From the NCBI RefSeq assembly GCF_008692195.1, contig NZ_RXOM01000004.1, positions 1 through 64,000 of the forward strand: a stretch of DNA of 64,000 nucleotides, written 5' to 3'. This stretch comes from Salegentibacter sp. R32 (GTDB lineage Bacteria > Bacteroidota > Bacteroidia > Flavobacteriales > Flavobacteriaceae). Made by a program: the position numbers and the translations under genes. Shown one piece after another: positions 19,599 through 31,097 of this stretch. The notes under the pieces were generated by a model. The model saw nothing but the letters and a program-made list of their open reading frames with translations, made no database searches and was not told the origin of the DNA. Within the stretch, counting starts at the first letter, position 1, and the number at the start of each line of letters is the position of its first letter.

Positions 19599-20255
19599 AT
19601 GAAAGTTTTAATTATTGGAGCACACGGAAAAGTTGGACAACGAATTTCCAAAGCGATGAGTGCTGCAGAAGATGTTGAACCTACGGCGTTCATTAGAAAA
19701 GAGGAGCAAAAGCCACTTTTTGAAGAGATGGGCGTTGGTACGGTTGTAGAAAGTTTAGAAAATACGCCTGAAGCTATTGGCGAAGTGATCAAAAACTACG
19801 ATGCTGTGGTATTCACGGCAGGATCTGGTGGAAAAACCGGTCACGATAAAACAATGGAAATTGATTTAGACGGCGCGATCAAGTCGATTAATCAGGCTGA
19901 AAAACACGGCGTAAAGCGTTTTGTAATGGTAGGCGCTTCGCACAGTGACGATCGCTCGTATTGGGGAAAAGTAGACGGAATGAAACCGTATTACACTGCA
20001 AAACATTATGCTGATTTAGAGCTGAAAAGAAGTTCGTTAGATTATACGATTTTACGTCCCGTTCTTTTAACCGATGACGATGAAGCCGGAAAAGTCTTAA
20101 TGACCGAAAACCCGGATGAAGTAGGATCTGAAATTCCACGTCAGGCCGTTGCTGAAACAGTTCTAACCGTGCTAAAAGATTCAAAAACCTACGGAAAAGT
20201 GATTGAAATGAGTAAAGGTGATGATGAAATGGCTGAAGCTTTAGAGAAGTTGTAG
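19599..20255 (+). CDS. NAD(P)-binding oxidoreductase, atypical SDR (YwnB-like)
   Basis: 218 residues. Rossmann motif GAHGKVGQRISKAM, VVFTAGSGGKTG, VKRFVMVGASHSDD, then YYTAKHYADLELKRSSLDYTILRP carrying the YxxxK-like pair. The family includes flavin-reductase and NmrA-like redox sensors. Last gene of the detoxification run, with a terminator 30 bases downstream. Confidence 0.85.
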   Translation: MKVLIIGAHGKVGQRISKAMSAAEDVEPTAFIRKEEQKPLFEEMGVGTVVESLENTPEAIGEVIKNYDAVVFTAGSGGKTGHDKTMEIDLDGAIKSINQAEKHGVKRFVMVGASHSDDRSYWGKVDGMKPYYTAKHYADLELKRSSLDYTILRPVLLTDDDEAGKVLMTENPDEVGSEIPRQAVAETVLTVLKDSKTYGKVIEMSKGDDEMAEALEKL

Positions 20256-20284
20256 GAAAAAACTAATTTTACTTGATATTTATA

Positions 20285-20322
20285 AAGACCATTTGGCTAA
20301 ATCCAGCAGATGGTCTTTTTTT
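20285..20322 (+). terminator. Terminator closing the detoxification operon
   Basis: Arms AAGACCAT (20285-20292) and ATGGTCTT (20310-20317), followed by a T tract. Confidence 0.75.
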
Positions 20323-20352
20323 ATGAATATAATTCTCAAACTATTATTCTTA

Positions 20353-20385
20353 GCCTTTCATCGACATTAAATTTCAATCTATCGA
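20353..20385 (+). promoter_or_regulatory. Predicted LytTR direct-repeat pair upstream of H-NOX
   Basis: GCCTTTCATCGA (20353) and TCAATCTATCGA (20374) are 21 bases apart, two helical turns, as LytTR regulators require. Similar repeats occur at 26406/26427 and 26610/26632 around the LytTR gene of this cluster. Confidence 0.5.
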
Positions 20386-20487
20386 AATCTATTCAAAGGA
20401 GAGCATAATATGTAGATTTTTGAAGGATGAAGATAGAACTTCTATTCAAATAACTGAATTATAAATCAACTTTTTAAAAGGTTAGCT

Positions 20488-21099
20488 ATGAAAGGAATTG
20501 TATTTACTGAGTTTTTAGAAATGGTTGAAGAAAAATTTGGCATAGAAAACGTAGACCATATCATAAATTATTCAAGCCTTCCCTCAAAAGGATGTTATAC
20601 TGCAGTGGGTACTTACAATTTTGTAGAGATGCAACAACTTCTATTTCACTTAAGTAGAGTAACCAACATCTCTGTTAACGATTTAATTTACAACTATGGC
20701 CTTTACTTTTTTAAAACCTTAACAACCCAACATCCTTATATTTTTCAACACTATAATTCTGCTATAGATTTAGTCGCTTCTATAGAAGACCACATTCATG
20801 TTCACGTAAAAAAAATATATCCAGATGCAGAGCTTCCCTCCTTCAAGATTATAGATAAATCTTCAAAAAACTTAAGTTTAATATATAAATCAGAGCGATG
20901 TATGTATATGTTTGCAAAAGCATTAATGGAAAAAACATTTGAATATTACCAAGAAAATGTCGAAATTAATTTTGAACTCTTAAATGAAAAAGGTTCAGAA
21001 GTTAAGTTTTTAATAACATCATATGGAGGAGTTATCAAAGAAAGTAGAAATATTGGAGAGAGCTTTACAGCGAGAAAAAAATGCCCGGCGAAAAGCTGA
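20488..21099 (+). CDS. H-NOX (haem-nitric oxide binding) sensor
   Basis: 203 residues, full H-NOX length. The proximal haem ligand falls at His102 in DHIHVHVKKIYPDAELPSF. The propionate-binding YxSxR motif is present as YKSER (residues 133-137). Five residues after the Arg, where oxygen-binding H-NOX proteins carry a Tyr, a Phe is found, so a nitric oxide rather than oxygen sensor is likely (inference from my alignment). Cytoplasmic. The last 77 bases overlap the start of the following kinase gene, its expected partner. Predicted LytTR repeats lie about 100 bases upstream. Confidence 0.93.
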   Translation: MKGIVFTEFLEMVEEKFGIENVDHIINYSSLPSKGCYTAVGTYNFVEMQQLLFHLSRVTNISVNDLIYNYGLYFFKTLTTQHPYIFQHYNSAIDLVASIEDHIHVHVKKIYPDAELPSFKIIDKSSKNLSLIYKSERCMYMFAKALMEKTFEYYQENVEINFELLNEKGSEVKFLITSYGGVIKESRNIGESFTARKKCPAKS

Positions 21100-23392
21100 A
21101 GCTATTCTAGAAGAAAAATCTACAGAACTATATCAACTTTCAGAGGCTTTAAAAACCTCTAACCAAAAACTTTCTAAACTACTTAAAGAAAAAACCACAC
21201 AGTTAGAAGGTGTCTTTACCAATATTATAGATGCATACGTAGTCATAGATATTCATGGTTATGTATTAAATATGAATGAAGCCGCCAAACAGCTTTTAGG
21301 TTTTGACCATGAAAAAGAAAATATAAACTTAGTAGAACTGGTAAAATCAGAATATAAGTCTTATAGCAAAGATGCTTTTAAAAAATTATATCAACAAGGT
21401 ACTTTTTCTAATTATAAAGTAAAAATCCTAACTAAAAGCAAAAAAGAAAAAACCGTACAAATTAATGCCAGTATAATCTACGATGATAATGGAAACCCTA
21501 TAGCCGCCCAAGGGATAGCAAGAGACATTACCAATGAAAATTTACTAAAAACCCAATTAGAAGAACAAAAAAGGCAATTAGAAATCATCATGGATAATTC
21601 GCCTATTGGGATTAGCCTTTCAAAAACCGGTCAAGAAGGATTATTAATCGCCAATAAAAGACTCGCAAAATTACTAGGCTACACGCAAGAAGAACTAAAC
21701 AATTTAGACCCGCGGGAAATCACCCATCCTGAAGATAAAGAATGGTCTTTAAAATACTTGAAAAAATTACTCGAAGGAAAAATAGACCACTATTCCGTAG
21801 AGAAAAGGTATATCAAAAAAAATGGGGATGTTATCTGGGTAAAAACTTCAGCGGCGGCCGTTAAAGATGCTAAAAAAGAACATTTCTATACCGTAGCCAC
21901 CTTTGAAGATATTTCTAAAGAAAAAGAAGCTCTCGAAAAATTAAAAGAGTCAGAAAATAGGTTAGCGGCTCTTATTGTTAATCTACAAACAGGAATTCTT
22001 CTAGAAGATGAAGACCGAAATATCCTACTTACCAATACCCGTTTTTGTAATATGTTTGGTATTGAAGCTCTACCAGAAGCATTAGTGGGAATGGATTGTA
22101 CCAATGCTGCGGAAGAAAATAAAGTTTACTTCAAAAATGAAGAAGAGTTTGTAAATAGAATAGACGAATTACTTCAGCAGAAAAAAACAGCACTCAACGA
22201 TACTCTTTTCCTAAAAGATGGAAGGGTTTTCGAGAGAAGCTACATTCCTATTTATCATCAAAAAAATTACAAAGGCCATTTATGGAGCTATACCGATGTA
22301 ACCATACAGAAAAAATACAGGGAAAGCTTAAAAGCCCAAAAAGAAAAGTATAGCAGTATTATTGCCCACATGAACTTAGGTTTATTAGAAAATGATATAG
22401 AAGACAAAATAGTATTTTCTAACCAGACTTTTTCTAAAATGAGTGGTTACTCCCAAGAAGAACTTTTGGGCAAAAGAGCTATCGATTTATTCCTAACAAA
22501 AAAATCTTCTCAAGACTATTTCACCAGGGTTGAAAATAGAGACCCTAACACAGCCGATTCTTATGAGCTTCAGATTAAAAATAAACAAGGGGAAAAACGT
22601 TATTGGTTAATTAGTACAGCACCTAATTATGACGTTAAGGGCGATAAAATTGGTTCAGTTGGTATTCACCTAGACATCACCCAAATAAAAGAATTAGAAA
22701 AACAAAAAGAGCAACTGCTTAACAATCTAGAAAAACAAAATGAACAACTTAATGAATATGCTCATATTGTTTCTCACGATTTAAAATCTCCATTACGAAA
22801 TATTTCGGCCCTATTAAGTTGGACTAAAGAAGACTTTCAGAATAAGTTGGGAGAAGAAAGTTTAACCAACCTTGACCTTATGCAGAATAAGGTTGAAAAA
22901 ATGGACCATCTTATCGAGAACATCCTAAAATATTCCAGTATAGAAAGTGATATATTGACTGAAGAGAATATAAACTTGAACGAACTCATCAACACCATTC
23001 GGGAAATGATTTATATTCCTGAACATATTATGGTACAAGCTACCGGTAAGCTCCCCACAATAAGGGCAGATAAAACCCGAATACAGCAGCTATTTCAAAA
23101 TCTTATTGGTAATGCTGTCAATTATATAGACAAAGAGAAAGGACTTATAGAAATTAGCCATTCAGAAAATAATACACATCACATATTTTCTATAAAAGAT
23201 AACGGGATAGGCATTGCAAAAGAACATCACGAAAAGATTTTCAAAATTTTCAATTCGCTAGGGAACCACGAAAAATCTACAGGAATAGGCTTAAGTATCG
23301 TCAAAAAAATAGTCGATCTATACAAAGGCAAAATTTGGTTAGAAAGTGAAGTAGGTGAAGGCACTACTTTCTATTTCAGCATAAAAAAATAA
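21023..23392 (+). CDS. Multi-PAS soluble histidine kinase, H-NOX partner
   Basis: 789 residues, no membrane segment. An N-terminal coiled coil (1-60) precedes four PAS domains at roughly 60-170, 187-300, 313-425 and 445-560. A second coiled coil leads to HisKA with the phosphorylated His585 in AHIVSHDLKSPLRN. The ATPase has NLIGNAVNY, KDNGIGIA and STGIGLSIVKKIV. The start overlaps H-NOX by 77 bases, strong coupling. No receiver domain is attached. The kinase core is closely similar to the kinase at 24528-25559, including AH(I/M)VSHDLKSPLRNI and the GIGLSIVKKI end, so one arose by duplication. Confidence 0.92.
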   Translation: MEELSKKVEILERALQREKNARRKAEAILEEKSTELYQLSEALKTSNQKLSKLLKEKTTQLEGVFTNIIDAYVVIDIHGYVLNMNEAAKQLLGFDHEKENINLVELVKSEYKSYSKDAFKKLYQQGTFSNYKVKILTKSKKEKTVQINASIIYDDNGNPIAAQGIARDITNENLLKTQLEEQKRQLEIIMDNSPIGISLSKTGQEGLLIANKRLAKLLGYTQEELNNLDPREITHPEDKEWSLKYLKKLLEGKIDHYSVEKRYIKKNGDVIWVKTSAAAVKDAKKEHFYTVATFEDISKEKEALEKLKESENRLAALIVNLQTGILLEDEDRNILLTNTRFCNMFGIEALPEALVGMDCTNAAEENKVYFKNEEEFVNRIDELLQQKKTALNDTLFLKDGRVFERSYIPIYHQKNYKGHLWSYTDVTIQKKYRESLKAQKEKYSSIIAHMNLGLLENDIEDKIVFSNQTFSKMSGYSQEELLGKRAIDLFLTKKSSQDYFTRVENRDPNTADSYELQIKNKQGEKRYWLISTAPNYDVKGDKIGSVGIHLDITQIKELEKQKEQLLNNLEKQNEQLNEYAHIVSHDLKSPLRNISALLSWTKEDFQNKLGEESLTNLDLMQNKVEKMDHLIENILKYSSIESDILTEENINLNELINTIREMIYIPEHIMVQATGKLPTIRADKTRIQQLFQNLIGNAVNYIDKEKGLIEISHSENNTHHIFSIKDNGIGIAKEHHEKIFKIFNSLGNHEKSTGIGLSIVKKIVDLYKGKIWLESEVGEGTTFYFSIKK

Positions 23393-23397
23393 AGAAA

Positions 23398-24528
23398 ATG
23401 AAAGTTGTTCAAGCATACAAACAAAATAATACTTGGAACTATACCCAACCAAAAGTCAAACTGAATAATCCTTTGGTGTTGGTTTTTGCTGAAAGAACTT
23501 TACTCGAACAAGAAAAAATATTAAAAAATATTAGAGAAGAATTTCCTTATGAGCATATTATTTTCAGTTCTACTGCCGGAGAGATTATTGGTGACCAAGT
23601 ATTAGAAAATTCCATCGCTGTTACAGCAATAGAATTTGAAAAGAGCTCTTTCATTATAAAAAAAGCCAATCTTTTTGATTTTGATAAAGACTCCTATTTC
23701 ATCGGAAAAAATTTAATAGAACAATTACCTCTAGAAAATCTCAAACATTTATTTGTAATTTCTGAAGGGAGTTTTGTTAACGGTAGTAAACTCATTGAAG
23801 GCATAGAAAGCAAGCTTCCAAGTGATGTGAAAATTACCGGTGGCATCTGTGGCGACAACGATAAATTTGAAAAAACCTTGGTATCCTTTCAAACAGACCC
23901 TACAGAAGGAGAAATTGTAATTATTGGGTTTTATGGGGAAAGTTTAGAATTTTCTTATGCCAGTTGCGGAGGTTGGGTTCCTTTTGGCCCAGAAAGAGTC
24001 ATCACCAAATCTGACGGTAGTATTCTTTATGAAATAGACGGAATTCCAGCATTGGACATCTATTCTAAATACTTAGGAGAAAAAGCCTTAGAACTGCCAC
24101 AATCTGCATTGCTTTTTCCTTTAAATGTACAAGCGAGAGGAAAAGCCCAGCCCGTAGTAAGAACCATTTTAAATATAGACCAAGAAAACAAATCTATGAT
24201 TTTTGCGGGCGATGTTCCTCAAAATTCAAGAGTACAGCTTATGATGGCTTCAGTAGATGCCATTGTTCAAGGAGCTGCAGACGCTGCTACAGCAGCCATG
24301 AAAAACAGAGAAAAAAATCCTGAAGTAGCCTTTTTAGTAAGCTGTATTGGTAGAAAAATGATGATGAACCAACGTACGGAAGAAGAAGTAGAAGAAGTTT
24401 TAGAAATAATAGGAAACAATTCCGTAGCTTCAGGCTTTTATTCCTACGGAGAAATTGCACCCTTCAGCCAAGAAAAAAGTTGTGAGCTACATAACCAAAC
24501 CATGACCCTAACCTTAATTAGTGAATAA
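23398..24528 (+). CDS. FIST domain protein, NosP-type haem/NO sensor candidate
   Basis: 376 residues with a FIST_N domain (about 20-215: LVFAERTLLEQEKILKNI, SSTAGEIIGD, GGICGDND) and a FIST_C domain (about 220-370: LDIYSKYLGE, FAGDVPQNSRVQLM, VASGFYSYGEIAPF). FIST proteins next to histidine kinases have been shown in several bacteria to bind haem and respond to nitric oxide (NosP). It begins 5 bases after one kinase and overlaps the next by one base. Whether this copy binds haem cannot be told from sequence. Confidence 0.88.
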   Translation: MKVVQAYKQNNTWNYTQPKVKLNNPLVLVFAERTLLEQEKILKNIREEFPYEHIIFSSTAGEIIGDQVLENSIAVTAIEFEKSSFIIKKANLFDFDKDSYFIGKNLIEQLPLENLKHLFVISEGSFVNGSKLIEGIESKLPSDVKITGGICGDNDKFEKTLVSFQTDPTEGEIVIIGFYGESLEFSYASCGGWVPFGPERVITKSDGSILYEIDGIPALDIYSKYLGEKALELPQSALLFPLNVQARGKAQPVVRTILNIDQENKSMIFAGDVPQNSRVQLMMASVDAIVQGAADAATAAMKNREKNPEVAFLVSCIGRKMMMNQRTEEEVEEVLEIIGNNSVASGFYSYGEIAPFSQEKSCELHNQTMTLTLISE

Positions 24529-25559
24529 TGAGTACGCTATTAGAAAGACAAATACGAAAGCTTTTACCAGAAGATTTAGCGAACGATAAAAAGTTAAAAC
24601 CTTTTTTAGAAGCTGTAAAAAGTTCTTACAATAACCAAGAAGAGCAGTTTAACATGCTCCAACGGGCCATGCGAATAAGCTCTGAAGAATTGTTTGTAGC
24701 CAACCAAAAATTAAGTGAAGAAAGTAATGCACAGCAGGAGATTCTAGACAGTTTAAAATTGGTCATCAAATCTTTACAGCTAAAAGCTCCCGAAAAAAAT
24801 GAGAATTTAGATGTAATAGAACTTGCCAATTACTTAAAAGAACAAAGTGAAGAACTGAATAATGTTAGGGAAGAACAAGAAAATTTATTACAAAACCTTG
24901 AACATAAAAATGAAATCCTTTCTAATTATGCACACATGGTTTCTCACGATTTAAAATCGCCCTTGCGTAATATAAATACTTTACTTCATTTTATTTTAGA
25001 AGAAAAACCTGAACTTGCCAACGAATGTAAAGAATATATAAATTTAATTTCAAATAATTTAGAGAAAATGGATGCCTTAATTAATGGCATTTTAAATTAT
25101 TCAACCTTAGACAAAGAGCGACTTGGTAAAGAAGTTATTGATTTAAACGTACTCCTAAATCAACTTACAGAAGTAATTTATATCCCTAATCATATAGAGC
25201 TTCAGGTTCCAAAAAATTTCCCCACTATTTATGGAGATACGATTAGGATTCAGCAAATTTTTCAGAATATCTTACAAAATGCAATTAACAGCATAGAAAA
25301 AGAAAAGGGATTCATTAAAATCGACTTCAAAGACCGGGAAAGCTTTTGGGAGTTTTCCATTGAAGATAACGGCTTTGGGATCCCCCAACATCAATTTGAA
25401 AAAATATTCAGGATTTTTGAAAAAATAGATAACGACCAGCAAGCCACAGGGATTGGCCTATCCATCGTTAAAAAAATTATAGATTTCTATGACGGTAAAA
25501 TCTGGTTAGAGAGTGAAATAGATAAAGGAACTACTTTTTATTTTACCTTACCCAAATAA
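24528..25559 (+). CDS. Soluble histidine kinase, FIST partner
   Basis: 343 residues without a sensor domain of its own. The first 130 residues are charged helices, probably a coiled-coil interface for the FIST protein. His140 lies in AHMVSHDLKSPLRN, with N box NILQNAINSI, EDNGFGIPQ and ATGIGLSIVKKIIDF. Start overlaps the FIST stop (TAATG). The core resembles the H-NOX partner kinase. A short AT-rich hairpin (25602-25621) follows. Confidence 0.92.
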   Translation: MSTLLERQIRKLLPEDLANDKKLKPFLEAVKSSYNNQEEQFNMLQRAMRISSEELFVANQKLSEESNAQQEILDSLKLVIKSLQLKAPEKNENLDVIELANYLKEQSEELNNVREEQENLLQNLEHKNEILSNYAHMVSHDLKSPLRNINTLLHFILEEKPELANECKEYINLISNNLEKMDALINGILNYSTLDKERLGKEVIDLNVLLNQLTEVIYIPNHIELQVPKNFPTIYGDTIRIQQIFQNILQNAINSIEKEKGFIKIDFKDRESFWEFSIEDNGFGIPQHQFEKIFRIFEKIDNDQQATGIGLSIVKKIIDFYDGKIWLESEIDKGTTFYFTLPK

Positions 25560-25584
25560 AATTCTTATTTTAGGGATATAAATA

Positions 25585-25651
25585 ACCATTCTTGAAAAAA
25601 AAATCCTTTCTTTTAAGGATTCTTAATTATTCAAGCTATACCATTATCCTA
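25585..25651 (+). promoter_or_regulatory. Possible LytTR half-sites upstream of the response regulator
   Basis: ACCATTCTTGAA (25585) and ACCATTATCCTA (25640) resemble the ACCATTCATCGA repeats elsewhere in the cluster but are 55 bases apart, so they do not form a standard pair. The AAGGATT hairpin lies between them. Confidence 0.3.
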
Positions 25652-25664
25652 AACTAAGAACTCT

Positions 25665-26378
25665 ATGAAATGTATAATTGTAGATGACGAAGAAATGGCG
25701 AGAGCTATTATCGAGCAGTTTGTTAACAATAATCCAGAACTAACACTTGAAGCTCAATTTCCTAATGCCATTCAAGCTATAAAATACCTTAATCAAAATC
25801 AAGTAGATTTAATTTTGCTGGATATTCATATGCCAGATTTTACAGGTTTCGATTTAATAGAAACCCTAAAAGAACCTCCAAAAATTATTTTAACTACATC
25901 CGATAGAAATTTTGCCTTACAAGCTTTTGAATATGAATTTATCGTAGATTATTTGGTAAAACCCATTACTGAAGAAAGGTTTAATAAAGCCGTAACCAAA
26001 GCAGCTTCTTTTTTAACTACTTCCTTAGCGTCTTCAACAAGTACAAAAAGTGAAAAAGATGCTCCCGAAAAAGAAATGTATGTAAACATAGACCGAAGAC
26101 TGGTAAAAATAGAATTTTCTACCATCAACGTGATCGAAGCTAAAGGCGACTATATTTTCATTAAAACCACTGGAAAGAATTACACCGTTCATTCAACATT
26201 AAAGAAAATTGAAGACAAGCTTCCCAACAACATTTTTTTAAAAGTACACCGGTCTTACATTATTAATATAAAAAAGATTGTAGATATAGAAGATAATAGC
26301 GTTTTAATAGAAAAAGATGTCATTCCTGTAAGCAGGTCTAACCGCCCAGAGTTAATGAAAAGGCTTAATCTATTATAA
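25665..26378 (+). CDS. LytTR-family response regulator
   Basis: 237 residues. Receiver domain (1-115) with the acidic pair IVDDEE, phosphorylation site Asp53 in LILLDIHMPD, the switch Thr in LTTSDRN and Lys in YLVKPI. A serine/threonine-rich linker leads to a LytTR DNA-binding domain (about 140-237: VNIDRRLVKIEFSTINVIEA, TVHSTLKKIEDKL, FLKVHRSYIIN). It is the only response regulator of the cluster, so both kinases may phosphorylate it (inference). Confidence 0.92.
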   Translation: MKCIIVDDEEMARAIIEQFVNNNPELTLEAQFPNAIQAIKYLNQNQVDLILLDIHMPDFTGFDLIETLKEPPKIILTTSDRNFALQAFEYEFIVDYLVKPITEERFNKAVTKAASFLTTSLASSTSTKSEKDAPEKEMYVNIDRRLVKIEFSTINVIEAKGDYIFIKTTGKNYTVHSTLKKIEDKLPNNIFLKVHRSYIINIKKIVDIEDNSVLIEKDVIPVSRSNRPELMKRLNLL

Positions 26379-26405
26379 AGATTATATTTTTAACTTCAAT
26401 AAATC

Positions 26406-26438
26406 ACCATCTAACGAGTAAAAGTTACCATTCATCGA
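26406..26438 (+). promoter_or_regulatory. Predicted LytTR direct-repeat pair
   Basis: ACCATCTAACGA (26406) and ACCATTCATCGA (26427) are exactly 21 bases apart. A weaker ACCATCTTTGAA follows at 26466. They lie after the response regulator stop, upstream of the terminator at 26520. Confidence 0.5.
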
Positions 26439-26519
26439 AAAACTTTAGAAACAACGTTTTAAATTACCATCTTTGAAGTGAGGTTAAGTAATTTTATTTC
26501 ATAAGTTTTTATTGGTTTT

Positions 26520-26556
26520 AAGGCCGGGAGTTTTTCTTCCGGCCTTAATGTTTTAT
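26520..26556 (+). terminator. Terminator of the NO-sensor cluster
   Basis: Perfect arms AAGGCCGG (26520-26527) and CCGGCCTT (26539-26546), followed by AATGTTTTAT. Confidence 0.65.
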
Positions 26557-26609
26557 ATAAACTCGCTTCTTTCGATTCTTTTCTTCTTTCAGTTTAAAGA
26601 AACAGACTT

Positions 26610-26662
26610 ACCATTCGTCTATCTTTCCCAATACCCTAATCGAATAGATTGCCAATCATTGC
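26610..26662 (+). promoter_or_regulatory. Predicted LytTR repeats upstream of the secreted protein
   Basis: ACCATTCGTCTA (26610), TACCCTAATCGA (26632) and GCCAATCATTGC (26651) lie 40-95 bases before the ATG at 26703. The first two are 22 bases apart. The match to the ACCATTCATCGA repeats suggests control by the adjacent LytTR regulator. Confidence 0.45.
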
Positions 26663-26702
26663 GTATCTAAAATAAATTTGTTCAAACAAAAATCTTTTTA
26701 TT

Positions 26703-29129
26703 ATGAAAATAGTCTTACACGCATTTCTGTTTTTGTTTATACAATTTTGTTTCGCTCAAAATTATAACTTTTTAGGAGCTTATACTTCAGATGGAACACC
26801 ACTGTACTTAGAGCCAGTTAACGATGTTATTAGTTATGCCACCATGGATATAATTAATAATGCCGTTCCAGAAGGTTATCCCGTACCCGATTACAACCCA
26901 CATTACATCTCATCAGGTTACGATACCGATGTTATCTTAGATGAAGCAGCCGATGTGTGGGTAACTTTTGTACAAGAAGGTGCAGGCTATAAAAACGTAT
27001 TAGGTTTTTATACTTACGATATTAACAATCCCTTTACTTCTGTCCCATCACCATCAGACATTACTATCATTTTTCCTAATGTTTCTGCAAGTGGTTCAGG
27101 TGGCGGACTTGTAAAAGGAAATAAAGTAAAAATAGGCACTTTTCCAGCTAATACCGGAATTGGCTGGGTTTTGTTGGCCAATGGCTGGAAAGATGCTACA
27201 ACTTCGGTAACCGCTGGGAACTGGCAATTATATTCCAATCCGGATTTTAACCCGGAAGCCGATGCGAATTTACGTCATCATAACATCTTATTGGCAGACC
27301 CTGATAATGAGCGAATCATTTTAGGTTTTGAAGATATAAGGAGAGATTATTCTTCTTGTGATAACGATTTTAATGATGCTTTGTTTTACGTAAGCGCTAA
27401 TCCTTATTCAGCTTTAAGAACCACTAATTATGCAGATGTGGAAAGCGCTACAGATGTGAGTTCTGCCAACTTAGGAGGATTGGAAAGTAATGGAAGTTTA
27501 GCACAGTTAATTGCAAAAAGAAACTTTAACCGGGTAAAAACCAATTCATTTGCCCACAAGAAAAATTTGCAGAACAAATTCCAGAAGAATTTAATGGCGA
27601 GAAGTGCTACTTCTGGAGTAAACGTAGGAGGGATTTTCCCTACCAGCGGAATGTTTGGCAGTGAACAATCTTATGAATCCAGTCCAACTGATTTATTAGC
27701 CATCACCAATGCAACTGAAGTTTTTGCTGTAGATTATTATGAAGAAAATAACCGCATAGCGGCAGCTTTAGCTACAAAAACCACGGGAGAAGTGTACAAT
27801 CACTCCAAAATGATTTGCGACCGATTAAATGGTTCATCCTTAAAAGATATTAGAACAGTAACTATTCAAAATCACGAAATGGTGATGCTTAAGATTGAAA
27901 GGGCTAATGGACAGGTGGAACATGCGATTTTATTTTCGGTAGCCGATAACGCCAACAATTACGAGTTGCACAGTTACTGGAATATCTTTCAATATCCATC
28001 AGTAGATTTTTCTAACTTTCAAATTTGGGGTTCATCTATGGGGCAAGTAAGTCATATTATAAATCATATTTTAGATGAATTAAATGCAACAAAACCTGTC
28101 ACCAGTTCAGCAGCTTTAGACAGAATTCCTTCAGTTTTTGTAAAAAAAGGATTTTACAAGAATGGAACTATTCAATTAGAAATTGTAAATAAAACTGGAG
28201 ACGCTAACCTTCAAATTGCAGGAAATAGCCGGGAAACCGAATTAGCTTCAGAAACTAGCTTCAACCAAAATGTTGCACTTTCAGGAAATTATGAAGAAGA
28301 AATTACGCTTACTACGGGAGGATTATTTGATATGGGATTAACTTTACTAGGGAGTAGTTCACCGCAAGCAGATGCTGTTTATTTAGCCGATGGCCCTTGG
28401 GGGTTAGATTATAATGAAGCTGAAACAACTATTAATAACTTTCAAATTTTAACATCATCCCTCATAAATGAAGATAATTATTCAGTTGAAAGAAATCCTT
28501 TGGTATCGGGAAGTATTCTAGGAACAGCCAATTTGTTCAGAACCATTTTACCGGGCGAATTAACTTTTGATGCTTCTGTTTATGAGTCTTTAGCATTTTC
28601 CATCTCCAATAACCTGCCTGTAGAAGTGGTGTTGGTAACAGAAAACTTAGTAGATTGGAATAACCGCTTTAAATTTCAATTGCCGGTAAATGCACAAGCA
28701 ACAGCTTATCAAATTAATTTGAGTGATTTTCAGAATGCTAATGGAGAATCTTTAAATGAATTTCAATTAAAAAGTATTGTTTTTTCAGTACAAGGAAACT
28801 ATCAGGATTTTCAGGATTTTAGTGTGGGTATTTCAGATGTTCAATTTACAACTGAAAGCTTATCGGCACAGGTTTACCAAAATGTAACCGCCTCTTTTTA
28901 CGCCTACCCCAATCCTGTAAAAGAAAACCTTAATATGGTATTTCCTCACCCTATGGAGAAAGCAAACCTTCAATTGTTCGATATGTTGGGAAGAAAAGTT
29001 TTTGAGCATTCGTTTAGTACAAAAGATAATCAAGCTCAGGTGAATTTATCTCAATTAAAAAGAGGAGTTTATCAAGCTTTAATAATACATGAAAAAGAGA
29101 AATTCTCTTGCCGACTTGTTATGGAGTAA
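26703..29129 (+). CDS. Type IX secreted DUF4114-domain protein
   Basis: 808 residues. A Sec signal peptide (IVLHAFLFLFIQFCFAQ) is followed by a domain ending in GFEDIRRDYSSCDNDFNDALFYV, the DUF4114 calcium-site-like signature. A central region of unknown fold contains a GGLFDMGLTLLGS motif. The C-terminus is a type A T9SS sorting domain: YAYPNPVKENLNM, LQLFDMLGRKV, LKRGVYQALI. It should be exported through the outer membrane and be surface-bound or released; adhesin or matrix roles are typical but unproven. LytTR-like repeats lie upstream and a terminator downstream. Confidence 0.88.
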   Translation: MKIVLHAFLFLFIQFCFAQNYNFLGAYTSDGTPLYLEPVNDVISYATMDIINNAVPEGYPVPDYNPHYISSGYDTDVILDEAADVWVTFVQEGAGYKNVLGFYTYDINNPFTSVPSPSDITIIFPNVSASGSGGGLVKGNKVKIGTFPANTGIGWVLLANGWKDATTSVTAGNWQLYSNPDFNPEADANLRHHNILLADPDNERIILGFEDIRRDYSSCDNDFNDALFYVSANPYSALRTTNYADVESATDVSSANLGGLESNGSLAQLIAKRNFNRVKTNSFAHKKNLQNKFQKNLMARSATSGVNVGGIFPTSGMFGSEQSYESSPTDLLAITNATEVFAVDYYEENNRIAAALATKTTGEVYNHSKMICDRLNGSSLKDIRTVTIQNHEMVMLKIERANGQVEHAILFSVADNANNYELHSYWNIFQYPSVDFSNFQIWGSSMGQVSHIINHILDELNATKPVTSSAALDRIPSVFVKKGFYKNGTIQLEIVNKTGDANLQIAGNSRETELASETSFNQNVALSGNYEEEITLTTGGLFDMGLTLLGSSSPQADAVYLADGPWGLDYNEAETTINNFQILTSSLINEDNYSVERNPLVSGSILGTANLFRTILPGELTFDASVYESLAFSISNNLPVEVVLVTENLVDWNNRFKFQLPVNAQATAYQINLSDFQNANGESLNEFQLKSIVFSVQGNYQDFQDFSVGISDVQFTTESLSAQVYQNVTASFYAYPNPVKENLNMVFPHPMEKANLQLFDMLGRKVFEHSFSTKDNQAQVNLSQLKRGVYQALIIHEKEKFSCRLVME

Positions 29130-29153
29130 TTTGAATTGGTTGGTTTTTGGGAG

Positions 29154-29190
29154 AAGGTCGAAAGTGAAAAACTTTCGGCCTTTTCTTTTT
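29154..29190 (+). terminator. Terminator after the T9SS protein
   Basis: Arms AAGGTCGAAAGT (29154-29165) and ACTTTCGGCCTT (29171-29182), then TTCTTTTT. Confidence 0.75.
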
Positions 29191-29375
29191 CAGACCTCGC
29201 AGGTTTTTGCAACCGGTAAGGTCTATTTTCTTACAAGCATATTGGGGCATTTAGTGAATTTTCATAGAAAATTTGTATCGAAATGCTATCAAAATGAAAT
29301 TCGCCTTAAATACGTTGAGTCATAATTGAAAAGCAACCTTTAGCAGTTTTTTGCATCTACTAATAAACAAACACC

Positions 29376-29816
29376 ATGAAAAACTTAATTTTCTTAGCTC
29401 TTGCTTGTTTATTCATCTCTTGCGATTCCGATGATGATAACAATAACGATACAAATCTTGTTACTTACGATTGCGACCAAGAAGTAGTAATTAGTAATGA
29501 ACAATTTCAAAACGCAACAACTTCTGATGTTGGTTTTGTCGATTATTCATTTGTAGACGGCTGTTTAGAACTTTCTTATTCTTCAAGTGGTTGTGATGGT
29601 TCTACTTGGACTGTAGAATTAATCGATTCCGGCAATGTGATGGAATCTGCCCCACCTCAACGAAATATTAGAATGGTGCTTGACAATCAAGAAGCTTGTT
29701 TGGCGGTTATTGGAAAAGAAACTTCCTTTGATATTTCCAGTTTACGAGTAGAAGGTTCTGATGAGGTGATTCTTCATTTAGAGAATTTTGATGAAGATAT
29801 TTTATATGAATATTAA
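29376..29816 (+). CDS. Small lipoprotein of unknown function
   Basis: 146 residues. Lipoprotein signal LIFLALACLFISCDS followed by an acidic DDDNNNDT linker, usual for Flavobacteriaceae. The mature part has paired cysteines (TYDCDQEVVIS, DGCLELSYSSSGCDG) and an acidic end. No family recognised. Its neighbour downstream is a broken lipoprotein gene on the other strand. Confidence 0.7.
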   Translation: MKNLIFLALACLFISCDSDDDNNNDTNLVTYDCDQEVVISNEQFQNATTSDVGFVDYSFVDGCLELSYSSSGCDGSTWTVELIDSGNVMESAPPQRNIRMVLDNQEACLAVIGKETSFDISSLRVEGSDEVILHLENFDEDILYEY

Positions 29817-29957
29817 TTTCAGTTCGAGACTTTAAATTCAAATGAAATTTTTGCGAAATTCATACTTAAGCATGAGTCGAGAACTTACGTTTAAATATAG
29901 GTTTCGACTCTACTCAACCTGATAAGTTGTAGTGAATTCATGTTATTTCTATTGATT

Positions 29958-30238
29958 TTACTCTATTTTTTGAATTTCCAAGCACAACCTAAGTAAGTTA
30001 GAATTGATAGAATAATCACCGGTTCCACATTCCGAATATTTAGTAGATGAGAAACTTCCATTTATCTGTAAAGTTCATAAGGATCTTCTGTAACTATCCA
30101 ATCTCCTGAACCATCGCCTGGATCGTAATAAACTTCAATTAGCTCCCATTTTCCTACTAAAACAGAGCTCTGATTTTTGTTGAATTATCGTCATCATTAT
30201 TACATCCCAATAGTAGGATAGAAAACAAGATGAAAATT
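29958..30238 (-). pseudogene. Broken lipocalin-like lipoprotein gene
   Basis: Minus-strand pieces in shifted frames spell IFILFSILLLGCNNDDDNST (lipoprotein signal), KWELIEVYYDPGDGSGDWIV followed by TEDPYEL, and INGSFSSTKYSECGTGDYSI then NSNLLRLCLEIQKIE and a stop. KWELIEV and the later DGSF/GDYSI layout are typical of small lipocalin-like lipoproteins in this group. At least two frame breaks and loss of the start codon show it is no longer expressed. The rest of 29817-30272 shows nothing. Confidence 0.65.
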
Positions 30239-30272
30239 TAACAAAAAGGTTGCGCCCAGTGTGAAAATTTAG

Positions 30273-31097
30273 TTACCAGCTTCCTCCGGCGCCACCGCCG
30301 CCAAAACCGCCTCCGCCGAAGCCACCACCAAAGCCTCCGCCACCAAAACCACCGCCGCTGCTTCCTCCAAAACCTCCGGAAGAACCACCACCAAACATTC
30401 CGCGACCAAGACTACTTAAAATAATGGCGTCAAAAAGTGTATCAGCACCACCTCTACGGCCGCCACGACCACCGCCGCCACCATTATTCTTTTTGATGAT
30501 AGAAATGATGATCACAATAAAAATAATGAAGACCACAATAATAGGAAACGGATTAAAACCAACACCTCGGTTGCCTTGCTTAGCTTCAAAAGTGCCATTC
30601 ATTACTTGCATAATTGCAGTAGTTCCTTTATCTAAACCTTGATAATAACTTCCTCTTCTAAATTCCGGTAAGATTATTTGATCAATGATGGTTTTGCTTT
30701 TAGCATCGGTCATATATTCTTCCACACCATAACCCGTTGTGATCCAAATTTTACGATCGTTTTTAGCCAGTAAAATTAAAAAACCATTGTCTTTGCCCGC
30801 TTGTCCAATCCCCCATTTTTGTGCCCAATCTGCGGCATAAGTTCCAATATATTCTCCGTTCAAGCTAGGAATGGTTGCGATTACAATTTGGGTTGAAGTT
30901 GTGTCTGCGTAACGCACTAACTTTTGCGTTAATGCATTTTTTTCAGCAGTACTTAAAACATTCGCGTCATCGTAAACGCTGGTTTCTTTTGAAGGTTTAT
31001 CGGGAATGTTAAGTTGAGCGAAACCTAAGGTTCCGGTCAATAGAAATAAAATTCCGAATAAAAATTTTTTGCTGAATACAAAGGTGAAGTGTGGCAT
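30273..31097 (-). CDS. TPM-domain membrane protein with glycine-rich tail (YgcG-like)
   Basis: 274 residues. Signal peptide (FLFGILFLLTGTLGFAQ), TPM domain (about 25-165: DDANVLSTAEKNALTQKLVRY, IVIATIPSLNGE, ADWAQKWGIGQAGKDNGFLILLAK), one membrane helix (FPIIVVFIIFIVIIISIIKK), then a Gly/Phe/Ser-rich tail ending GGAGGSW. TPM proteins are linked to membrane-protein turnover or repair. It overlaps the next TPM gene by one base and forms an operon with lemA. Confidence 0.88.
   Translation of the reverse strand: MPHFTFVFSKKFLFGILFLLTGTLGFAQLNIPDKPSKETSVYDDANVLSTAEKNALTQKLVRYADTTSTQIVIATIPSLNGEYIGTYAADWAQKWGIGQAGKDNGFLILLAKNDRKIWITTGYGVEEYMTDAKSKTIIDQIILPEFRRGSYYQGLDKGTTAIMQVMNGTFEAKQGNRGVGFNPFPIIVVFIIFIVIIISIIKKNNGGGGGRGGRRGGADTLFDAIILSSLGRGMFGGGSSGGFGGSSGGGFGGGGFGGGFGGGGFGGGGAGGSW

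Follow-up and report, generated by a model that had tools for sequence, protein, structure and literature searches.

A candidate phosphorelay linking H-NOX and FIST sensors to LytTR regulators in a flavobacterial operon

A cluster of five genes occupies positions 20488-26378 of a 64,000-nucleotide stretch of DNA from Salegentibacter sp. R32, a member of the Flavobacteriaceae (contig NZ_RXOM01000004.1, assembly GCF_008692195.1; the whole stretch is called the window here). In order, the genes encode an H-NOX sensor, a histidine kinase with four PAS stretches (kinase 1), a FIST protein, a second histidine kinase (kinase 2) and a LytTR response regulator (Table 1). An initial annotation, made from the letters alone, saw in this cluster two different families of nitric oxide (NO) sensor, each ahead of its own soluble kinase, with a single LytTR regulator downstream. 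Domain searches confirm the two families and find both a receiver and a LytTR domain in the regulator, whose gene begins 105 bases past kinase 2. The reported overlaps are also correct (77 bases between H-NOX and kinase 1, 1 base between FIST and kinase 2), and the five proteins have no transmembrane look, with maximum 19-residue hydropathy values of 0.63-1.36. The kinase cores, described at first as near-identical, are in reality 51% identical over 236 residues. That the genes form one transcript agrees with their spacing and with the hairpin terminator that follows them, and it is from these two features that we take it.

Table 1. Features of the window, and copies of the putative small RNA in other sources (named in the first column)
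Feature	Position	Strand	Basis or remark
LytTR-type direct-repeat box before H-NOX operon	20353..20387	+	31.8 bits with refined matrix; 28.9 with matrix from other genomes' secreted-protein promoters only
Putative -7 promoter element TAGATTTTTG	20413..20422	+	read from sequence
H-NOX sensor, 203 amino acids	20488..21099	+	PF07700 1.9e-35
Soluble histidine kinase 1	21023..23392	+	Pfam: four PAS stretches, HisKA, HATPase_c
FIST protein (NosP-like), 376 amino acids	23398..24528	+	PF08495 1.8e-45, PF10442 5.7e-37
Soluble histidine kinase 2: coiled FIST-kinase-type N-terminus and HisKA/HATPase core	24528..25559	+	Pfam; N-terminus and core compared across loci
105-base gap, position of the Hpt gene in relatives	25560..25664	+	gene order
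LytTR response regulator (copy A)	25665..26378	+	PF00072 2.4e-18, PF04397 9e-21
Second LytTR-type box, directly 3' of LytTR gene	26406..26440	+	12.6 bits with matrix 1, <8 with matrix 2
Putative small RNA gene (conserved core 26484-26515, hairpin terminator 26518-26548)	26474..26550	+	aligned copies, terminator prediction
LytTR-type box with one extra spacer base, before secreted-protein gene	26610..26645	+	15.1 bits when spacer base skipped
Secreted protein, DUF4114 and T9SS sorting tail; predicted target	26703..29129	+	PF13448, PF18962, TIGR04183
Small-RNA copy, L193	11002-11085	-	
Small-RNA copy, L226	14986-15066		
Small-RNA copies, L227	15255-15335, 15489-15570, 15702-15785		
Small-RNA copies, L228	12799-12881, 13011-13093, 13224-13306		

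The H-NOX protein scores 122.6 bits against the HNOB model (cut-off 25.5) over model positions 1-162 of 163, and the haem features noted at the outset, H102 and Y133-x-S135-x-R137, are invariant across 14 aligned H-NOX sequences. Its nearest solved relatives are 6bde and 6bdd (195 and 192 bits), the latter identified in a passage of PMC7356049 as the H-NOX of Kordia algicida; the comparison extends to the structure of the sensor alone. Since the window protein is 84% identical to the H-NOX of Mesonia oceanica, the window genome is probably that of a Mesonia relative. The FIST protein contains both the FIST and the FIST_C domain of the NosP class but reaches 64.5 bits with the NCBIfam NosP model (NF041558), short of its cut-off of 450, and we therefore file it as a NosP-like FIST protein rather than as NosP. 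A structure search returned no solved match for it. There is a real possibility, if not quite an even one, that this protein responds to a ligand other than NO, so that the pair would integrate NO and a second signal. The shortfall against the NosP model and the lack of a solved relative point in that direction, as does the position of its only invariant histidine, H365, in a stretch that is common to FIST proteins encoded away from H-NOX. However, the next gene encodes a kinase that is similar in its N-terminus to other FIST-linked kinases, and this order of genes is also that of the NosP systems treated in a portion of PMC12570481. Haem binding and NO sensing by the FIST protein are possible.

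The association of the two sensors proved to be a conserved one, as a survey of 299 Flavobacteriaceae genomes indicates. H-NOX is found in 105 of these genomes and FIST_C in 85, with both in 66 where 29.8 would be expected (Fisher p 6e-22) and H-NOX without FIST_C in 39. The two genes lie on one strand within 8 kb of each other in 57 of the 66 and apart in the other 9; H-NOX is upstream in 56 of the 57 neighbouring pairs, at spacings that cluster around 1.9, 2.3, 2.7 and 3.1 kb. A LytTR gene follows within seven genes downstream in 52 of these 57 loci. The two sensor families, each ahead of its own kinase, and the LytTR regulator make up a unit that is conserved within the family. In a broader sample of 345 genomes from the phylum, H-NOX occurs in 26 and FIST_C in 81; counted by eye, both occur in 18 and are adjacent in 11 (10 of 12 genomes inside the family, 1 of 6 outside). 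Kinase 1 varies in length in step with these spacings, with classes that hold, in order of increasing length, 11, 24, 37, 27 and 1 proteins (one further sequence is a fragment); in four members of about 403, 530, 658 and 788 residues the PAS stretches agree with one, two, three and four domains, respectively. In the operons that begin with a receiver, H-NOX and kinase, the length classes of kinase 1 correspond to one to four PAS domains, and once perhaps five.

The same comparison uncovered two genes that the window operon lacks. For 116 loci, in which genes were called as mechanical open reading frames, a lone receiver (REC) gene was found directly before H-NOX in 55 of the 57 loci with both sensors, and a gene for a histidine phosphotransfer (Hpt) protein after the kinases, again within seven genes, in 54. 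The 45 examined loci in which H-NOX is not adjacent to FIST carry REC in 41 cases, Hpt in 38 and LytTR in 39; five of the 50 such loci (G293, G276, G079, G066, G112) and two secondary H-NOX matches were left out. Because REC, Hpt and LytTR are kept with or without FIST, the FIST gene and kinase 2 behave as an optional cassette in an operon of the order REC, H-NOX, kinase, Hpt, LytTR. Among the best 80 of 498 named relatives, the full order is present in 45 and the order without FIST in 20. The Hpt protein has one histidine, H55, that is invariant in 15 sequences and lies inside a VHKLKHK-like motif. Its predicted structure is all-helical, with a predicted local distance difference test (pLDDT) value of 96, and resembles the solved Hpt domains 3myf and 7c1i with template-modelling (TM) scores of 0.75 and 0.77.

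In the window genome, REC (231 bits), Hpt (140 bits) and a second LytTR regulator (LytTR', or copy B) lie side by side on contig 19. In M. oceanica, the only one among the best 80 of 498 named relatives with the same reduced operon, a single contig carries the sensor operon, the secreted-protein gene, a polysaccharide locus and the REC-Hpt-LytTR' genes in that order, the last 16 kb away. The full operon is found in two further Mesonia (L227, L228). LytTR copies A and B are 67% identical, and in a tree of 93 LytTR rows both belong to a supported set of four without pairing with each other. The split likely arose by duplication of the operon and complementary gene loss in one Mesonia branch, an origin for which the tree gives no proof. 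The output of the relay has been duplicated independently in L145, L123 and L127, each with a tandem second LytTR gene, L145 also with a second Hpt gene.

In the initial annotation, direct phosphorylation of the LytTR protein by the kinases was taken for granted. Given the membership of REC and Hpt in the operons of relatives and the copies on contig 19, a four-step route from the kinases to REC, Hpt and then LytTR is the likelier one, and direct signalling was set aside as the sole model. It is quite unlikely, in our judgment, that the window branch has been shortened to a two-component path in which both kinases act on copy A and the REC-Hpt-LytTR' genes serve something else. The reduced operon is kept in two species under purifying selection, and copy A differs from 87 canonical sequences (compared after removal of four long rows) at L19F and C20V in the first receiver helix, both of which speak for such a path. 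The first receiver helix lies near the usual site of partner docking. Nevertheless, REC, Hpt and LytTR' are intact in both genomes, and C20 is altered in copy B as well. One could also imagine that the window operon is decaying, having lost two genes that 55 and 54 of 57 loci retain, but this is very improbable: the frames are open in two species, the LytTR-type boxes described below are retained, and comparison with M. oceanica gives dN/dS values of 0.06-0.12 for H-NOX, both kinases, FIST, LytTR and the secreted protein.

How does the FIST protein come to share this operon? Kinase 2 offers a hint. Its N-terminus matches both its relatives within such operons (median 72 bits, 53 proteins) and the kinases of FIST genes found elsewhere (median 20 bits, 16 proteins), while its core resembles that of kinase 1 (medians of 231 and 219 bits) far more than those of the elsewhere kinases (62 bits). 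Against near_NosP_CTERM, the model for NosP-linked kinases of the NahK/ErcS type, kinase 2 reaches 91.7 bits, short of the curated cut-off of 400. A branch with 99% support in a quick tree of 78 cores has 13 of the 14 elsewhere kinases on one side and the cores of kinases 1 and 2 on the other. The simplest reading is that kinase 2 looks like a chimera, with a FIST-kinase-like N-terminus on an H-NOX-kinase-like core. Such a build lends support to the convergence of both inputs on one relay, and it suggests how a new sensor may be wired into an existing one.

The outputs of the relay are suggested by a 35-base element, similar to ACCATTCGTCTACACTnAAnnnnnCAnCnAnCGAAA, that is common to the promoters of the secreted-protein genes and whose halves repeat at 21 bases. 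A 21-base repeat of half-sites is usual for LytTR sites. The element is followed downstream by a putative -7 element of the Bacteroidetes type, for which the consensus is TAnnTTTG. In the window genome and its relatives, the direct repeat precedes the sensor operon, the gene for a surface protein sorted by the type IX secretion system (T9SS), which belongs to a cluster found in 37 of 117 loci, and an exopolysaccharide locus. A matrix trained on 35 of 37 secreted-protein promoters, with that of the window excluded, gave 252 matches above 18 bits over 2.25 Mb, compared with none in one shuffle and 0-1 with each of 20 column-permuted matrices. Boxes precede 72 of 95 REC genes at operon starts, 25 of 46 STAS genes, 19 of 37 glycosyltransferase genes and 7 of 46 flippase genes, as against 16 of the 1778 remaining genes, a background from which seven small box-positive classes (c22, c55, c56, c37, c59, c44, c18) had been set apart after the table was inspected. 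Among the named loci, 53 of 72 operon starts have a box. In 100 single-base shuffles of the window, which preserve base composition only, the best box averaged 6.1 bits and the largest reached 20.9. The box at 26406 recurs at the same place in M. oceanica, where it scores 9.1 and 6.9 bits; that at 26610 is below threshold unless its extra base is skipped, and with the skip the largest of 300 shuffles gave 3.4.

The polysaccharide locus comprises genes for a TPR/outer-membrane protein, a STAS protein, a flippase, a GT4 glycosyltransferase and a GH5-like protein. It is intact on contig 33 of the window genome, with boxes before the STAS, GT4 and response-regulator genes. A pattern written for this genome from sites already seen, and to that extent circular, gave 5 of 7 matches in the regulon, with 2 for the reversed control. 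The 64 kb window by itself was rejected as evidence for the polysaccharide link, since synteny with M. oceanica stops at 29823 and the locus sits on contig 33. An early spaced pattern for LytTR sites yielded nothing useful, and a sigma-70 scan found 29 sites where 26.7 were expected, which fits a group with other promoters. In L128, L131, L140 and L153, the usual polysaccharide locus is replaced near the H-NOX operon by genes for a PgaC-like glycosyltransferase, a sugar-nucleotide dehydrogenase and an HlyD-like export protein.

Between the LytTR and secreted-protein genes of the window lies a putative small RNA gene. Nine copies with a near-identical core were found: one in the window, one in M. 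oceanica, one after LytTR' on contig 19, and six in L227 and L228, which carry three tandem copies apiece. The copies examined have LytTR-type boxes of varying strength upstream. The terminator of the window copy has 13 pairs, and the stem keeps its pairing through two-sided changes at five of them; a model of the RNA matches 26475-26556 at 91.2 bits, by construction, as the window copy was in the training set. Variation in the length of a T-run shifts any reading frame, which makes a peptide unlikely. Rfam had no match in window positions 20000-30500. When the model was run against 181 sources (L158-L177 left out), only weak matches appeared outside Mesonia, in L295 (E 0.0045) and in L071, L106, L083, L091, L236 and L305 (E 0.075-0.69). 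We consider it unlikely, though far from impossible, that the putative RNA is a mere leader or leftover terminator with no regulatory role. Its restriction to Mesonia, bar the weak L295 match, would fit such a view, and a search for duplexes with 118 gene starts did no better than shuffles, with best values of -24.6 and -24.2 kcal/mol against shuffled minima that average -21.4 and reach -25.2. Yet each of the nine copies has its own terminator, two species carry three in tandem, and the T-run changes that shift any frame count on the same side.

Qrr small RNAs lie downstream in the Vibrio relay. The likeness to Qrr is one of working: multiple copies, a regulator site upstream and a terminator. 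The second-ranked of the 118 pairings, within the shuffled range, involves the start region of a 918-residue gene beside the polysaccharide locus (L319, contig 33, 1446-4202). In L068, L073, L096, L101, L123, L135 and L295, all outside Mesonia, a box is followed by a short, terminator-ended unit without a clear open reading frame and with a sequence unlike that of the Mesonia RNA.

We favour, as fairly probable, a two-input phosphorelay in which two kinases, set by NO sensing through H-NOX and possibly FIST, both feed into REC, Hpt and LytTR, with outputs in surface polysaccharide, the T9SS-sorted protein, the relay's own operons and, in Mesonia, the small RNA. By analogy with the H-NOX/HnoK and NosP/kinase pairs, H-NOX would govern kinase 1 and FIST kinase 2, with sensor and kinase as separate proteins. 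Both kinases lack receiver domains and would pass phosphate to the lone REC, thence to Hpt and on to the LytTR regulators; in the window genome, REC and Hpt would act from the other contig, beside the second LytTR. Phosphorylated LytTR would bind the repeat pairs 21 bases apart and presumably activate, rather than repress, its own operons, the surface-protein gene, the exopolysaccharide locus and, in Mesonia, expression of the small RNA. NO, acting through H-NOX and possibly FIST, would thereby reset surface polysaccharide and adhesion. More tentatively, and with somewhat less than even confidence, we propose a wider picture: a circuit for NO in Flavobacteriaceae, independent of cyclic di-GMP, with two gas sensors, two kinases (the second a FIST-docking N-terminus joined to a copied H-NOX kinase core) and one REC-Hpt-LytTR relay in control of exopolysaccharide, a T9SS surface protein and its own synthesis; tandem Mesonia RNAs, also under its control, that resemble the LuxO-Qrr arrangement by convergence; and an operon that was duplicated in one Mesonia branch and, through complementary loss, left co-dependent halves bracketing the polysaccharide locus of M. 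oceanica.

Several results, in addition to the NosP score and the duplex search given above, weigh against the proposed phosphorelay. The window operon itself is without REC and Hpt, which leaves room for direct transfer from the kinases to LytTR, and the membership of these two genes in the relay is read from relatives, the window genome having them on another contig. For the Hpt protein, Foldseek E-values are 0.016 or worse, and the Pfam Hpt model stops short of its cut-off of 24.6 bits, scoring 17.8 for one member and finding no match in a second. The relay's Hpt is also present where H-NOX is absent, in 17 of 116 genomes, and other inputs to the relay therefore exist. The tree of kinase cores came with long-branch warnings, and kinase 1 does not form one clean group in it. 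Finally, some boxes in the window genome are weak, namely that at 26406 and those on contig 19, which at 21-23 bits are near the largest shuffle value.

Parts of this arrangement have counterparts in known systems. In Shewanella oneidensis and Vibrio cholerae, according to passages of PMC8846402 and PMC7108781, H-NOX inhibits its kinase once NO is bound, while NosP inhibits its kinase in some systems and activates it in others (PMC8846402, PMC8738867, PMC12570481, in part). The H-NOX (HnoX)-HnoK-HnoB/C/D pathway of these two species likewise has a stand-alone H-NOX beside a soluble kinase, with NO setting kinase activity and biofilm formation (sections of PMC8846402 and PMC8738867); its known outputs, however, act on cyclic di-GMP enzymes, in contrast to the lone receiver, Hpt protein and DNA-binding LytTR regulator found here. 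The NosP/NahK, NosP/NosK/NosR and NosP/VpsS systems share a FIST protein ahead of a kinase without a sensor domain. In the window, by contrast, the FIST gene is part of an H-NOX operon, the core of the accompanying kinase is H-NOX-kinase-like, and the FIST protein falls short of the curated NosP cut-off. In the Vibrio quorum relay, according to the portions of PMC6769237 and PMC8738867 concerned, H-NOX/HqsK and NosP/VpsS feed LuxU and then LuxO, so that separate NO sensors join one relay through an Hpt protein. That relay differs in its hybrid kinases and LuxO output, where the window system has REC as a protein of its own, LytTR as the output and an RNA of unrelated sequence. The closest statement that the literature searches turned up is in a survey of H-NOX genome neighbourhoods (PMC8738867), which records FIST genes in the vicinity of H-NOX for its group 1; its section 10 and figure legend mention no Bacteroidetes, LytTR or Hpt and propose no circuit.

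As the initial annotation had supposed, no described system combining H-NOX, FIST/NosP and LytTR, and no H-NOX/FIST/Hpt/LytTR operon, was found in searches of the open-licence literature, which misses most subscription papers. To judge from the portions of the literature cited above, NO signalling to biofilms has been described mostly through cyclic di-GMP enzymes or the Vibrio quorum relay. If the proposed phosphorelay is correct, a conserved LytTR pathway would let NO act on surface polysaccharide through gene expression in the Flavobacteriaceae, which are among the major marine bacteria that associate with algae, and would come with a concrete regulon, a testable binding site and a candidate small RNA. 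The split operon would be a natural experiment in dividing one relay between two operons.

Other arrangements of the two sensors occur within the family sample. At L062 (genome G253), FIST lies directly before H-NOX with a 1156-residue kinase nearby and without Hpt or LytTR; the H-NOX gene there was identified by Pfam and missed by the search used, and REC and Hpt were counted as absent from the locus. In G037, G038, G042, G054, G066, G069, G078, G101, G154, G225, G247 and G261, FIST genes with lower scores lie close together in groups of two to four; these genomes are mostly free of H-NOX, G066 being the one that has it.

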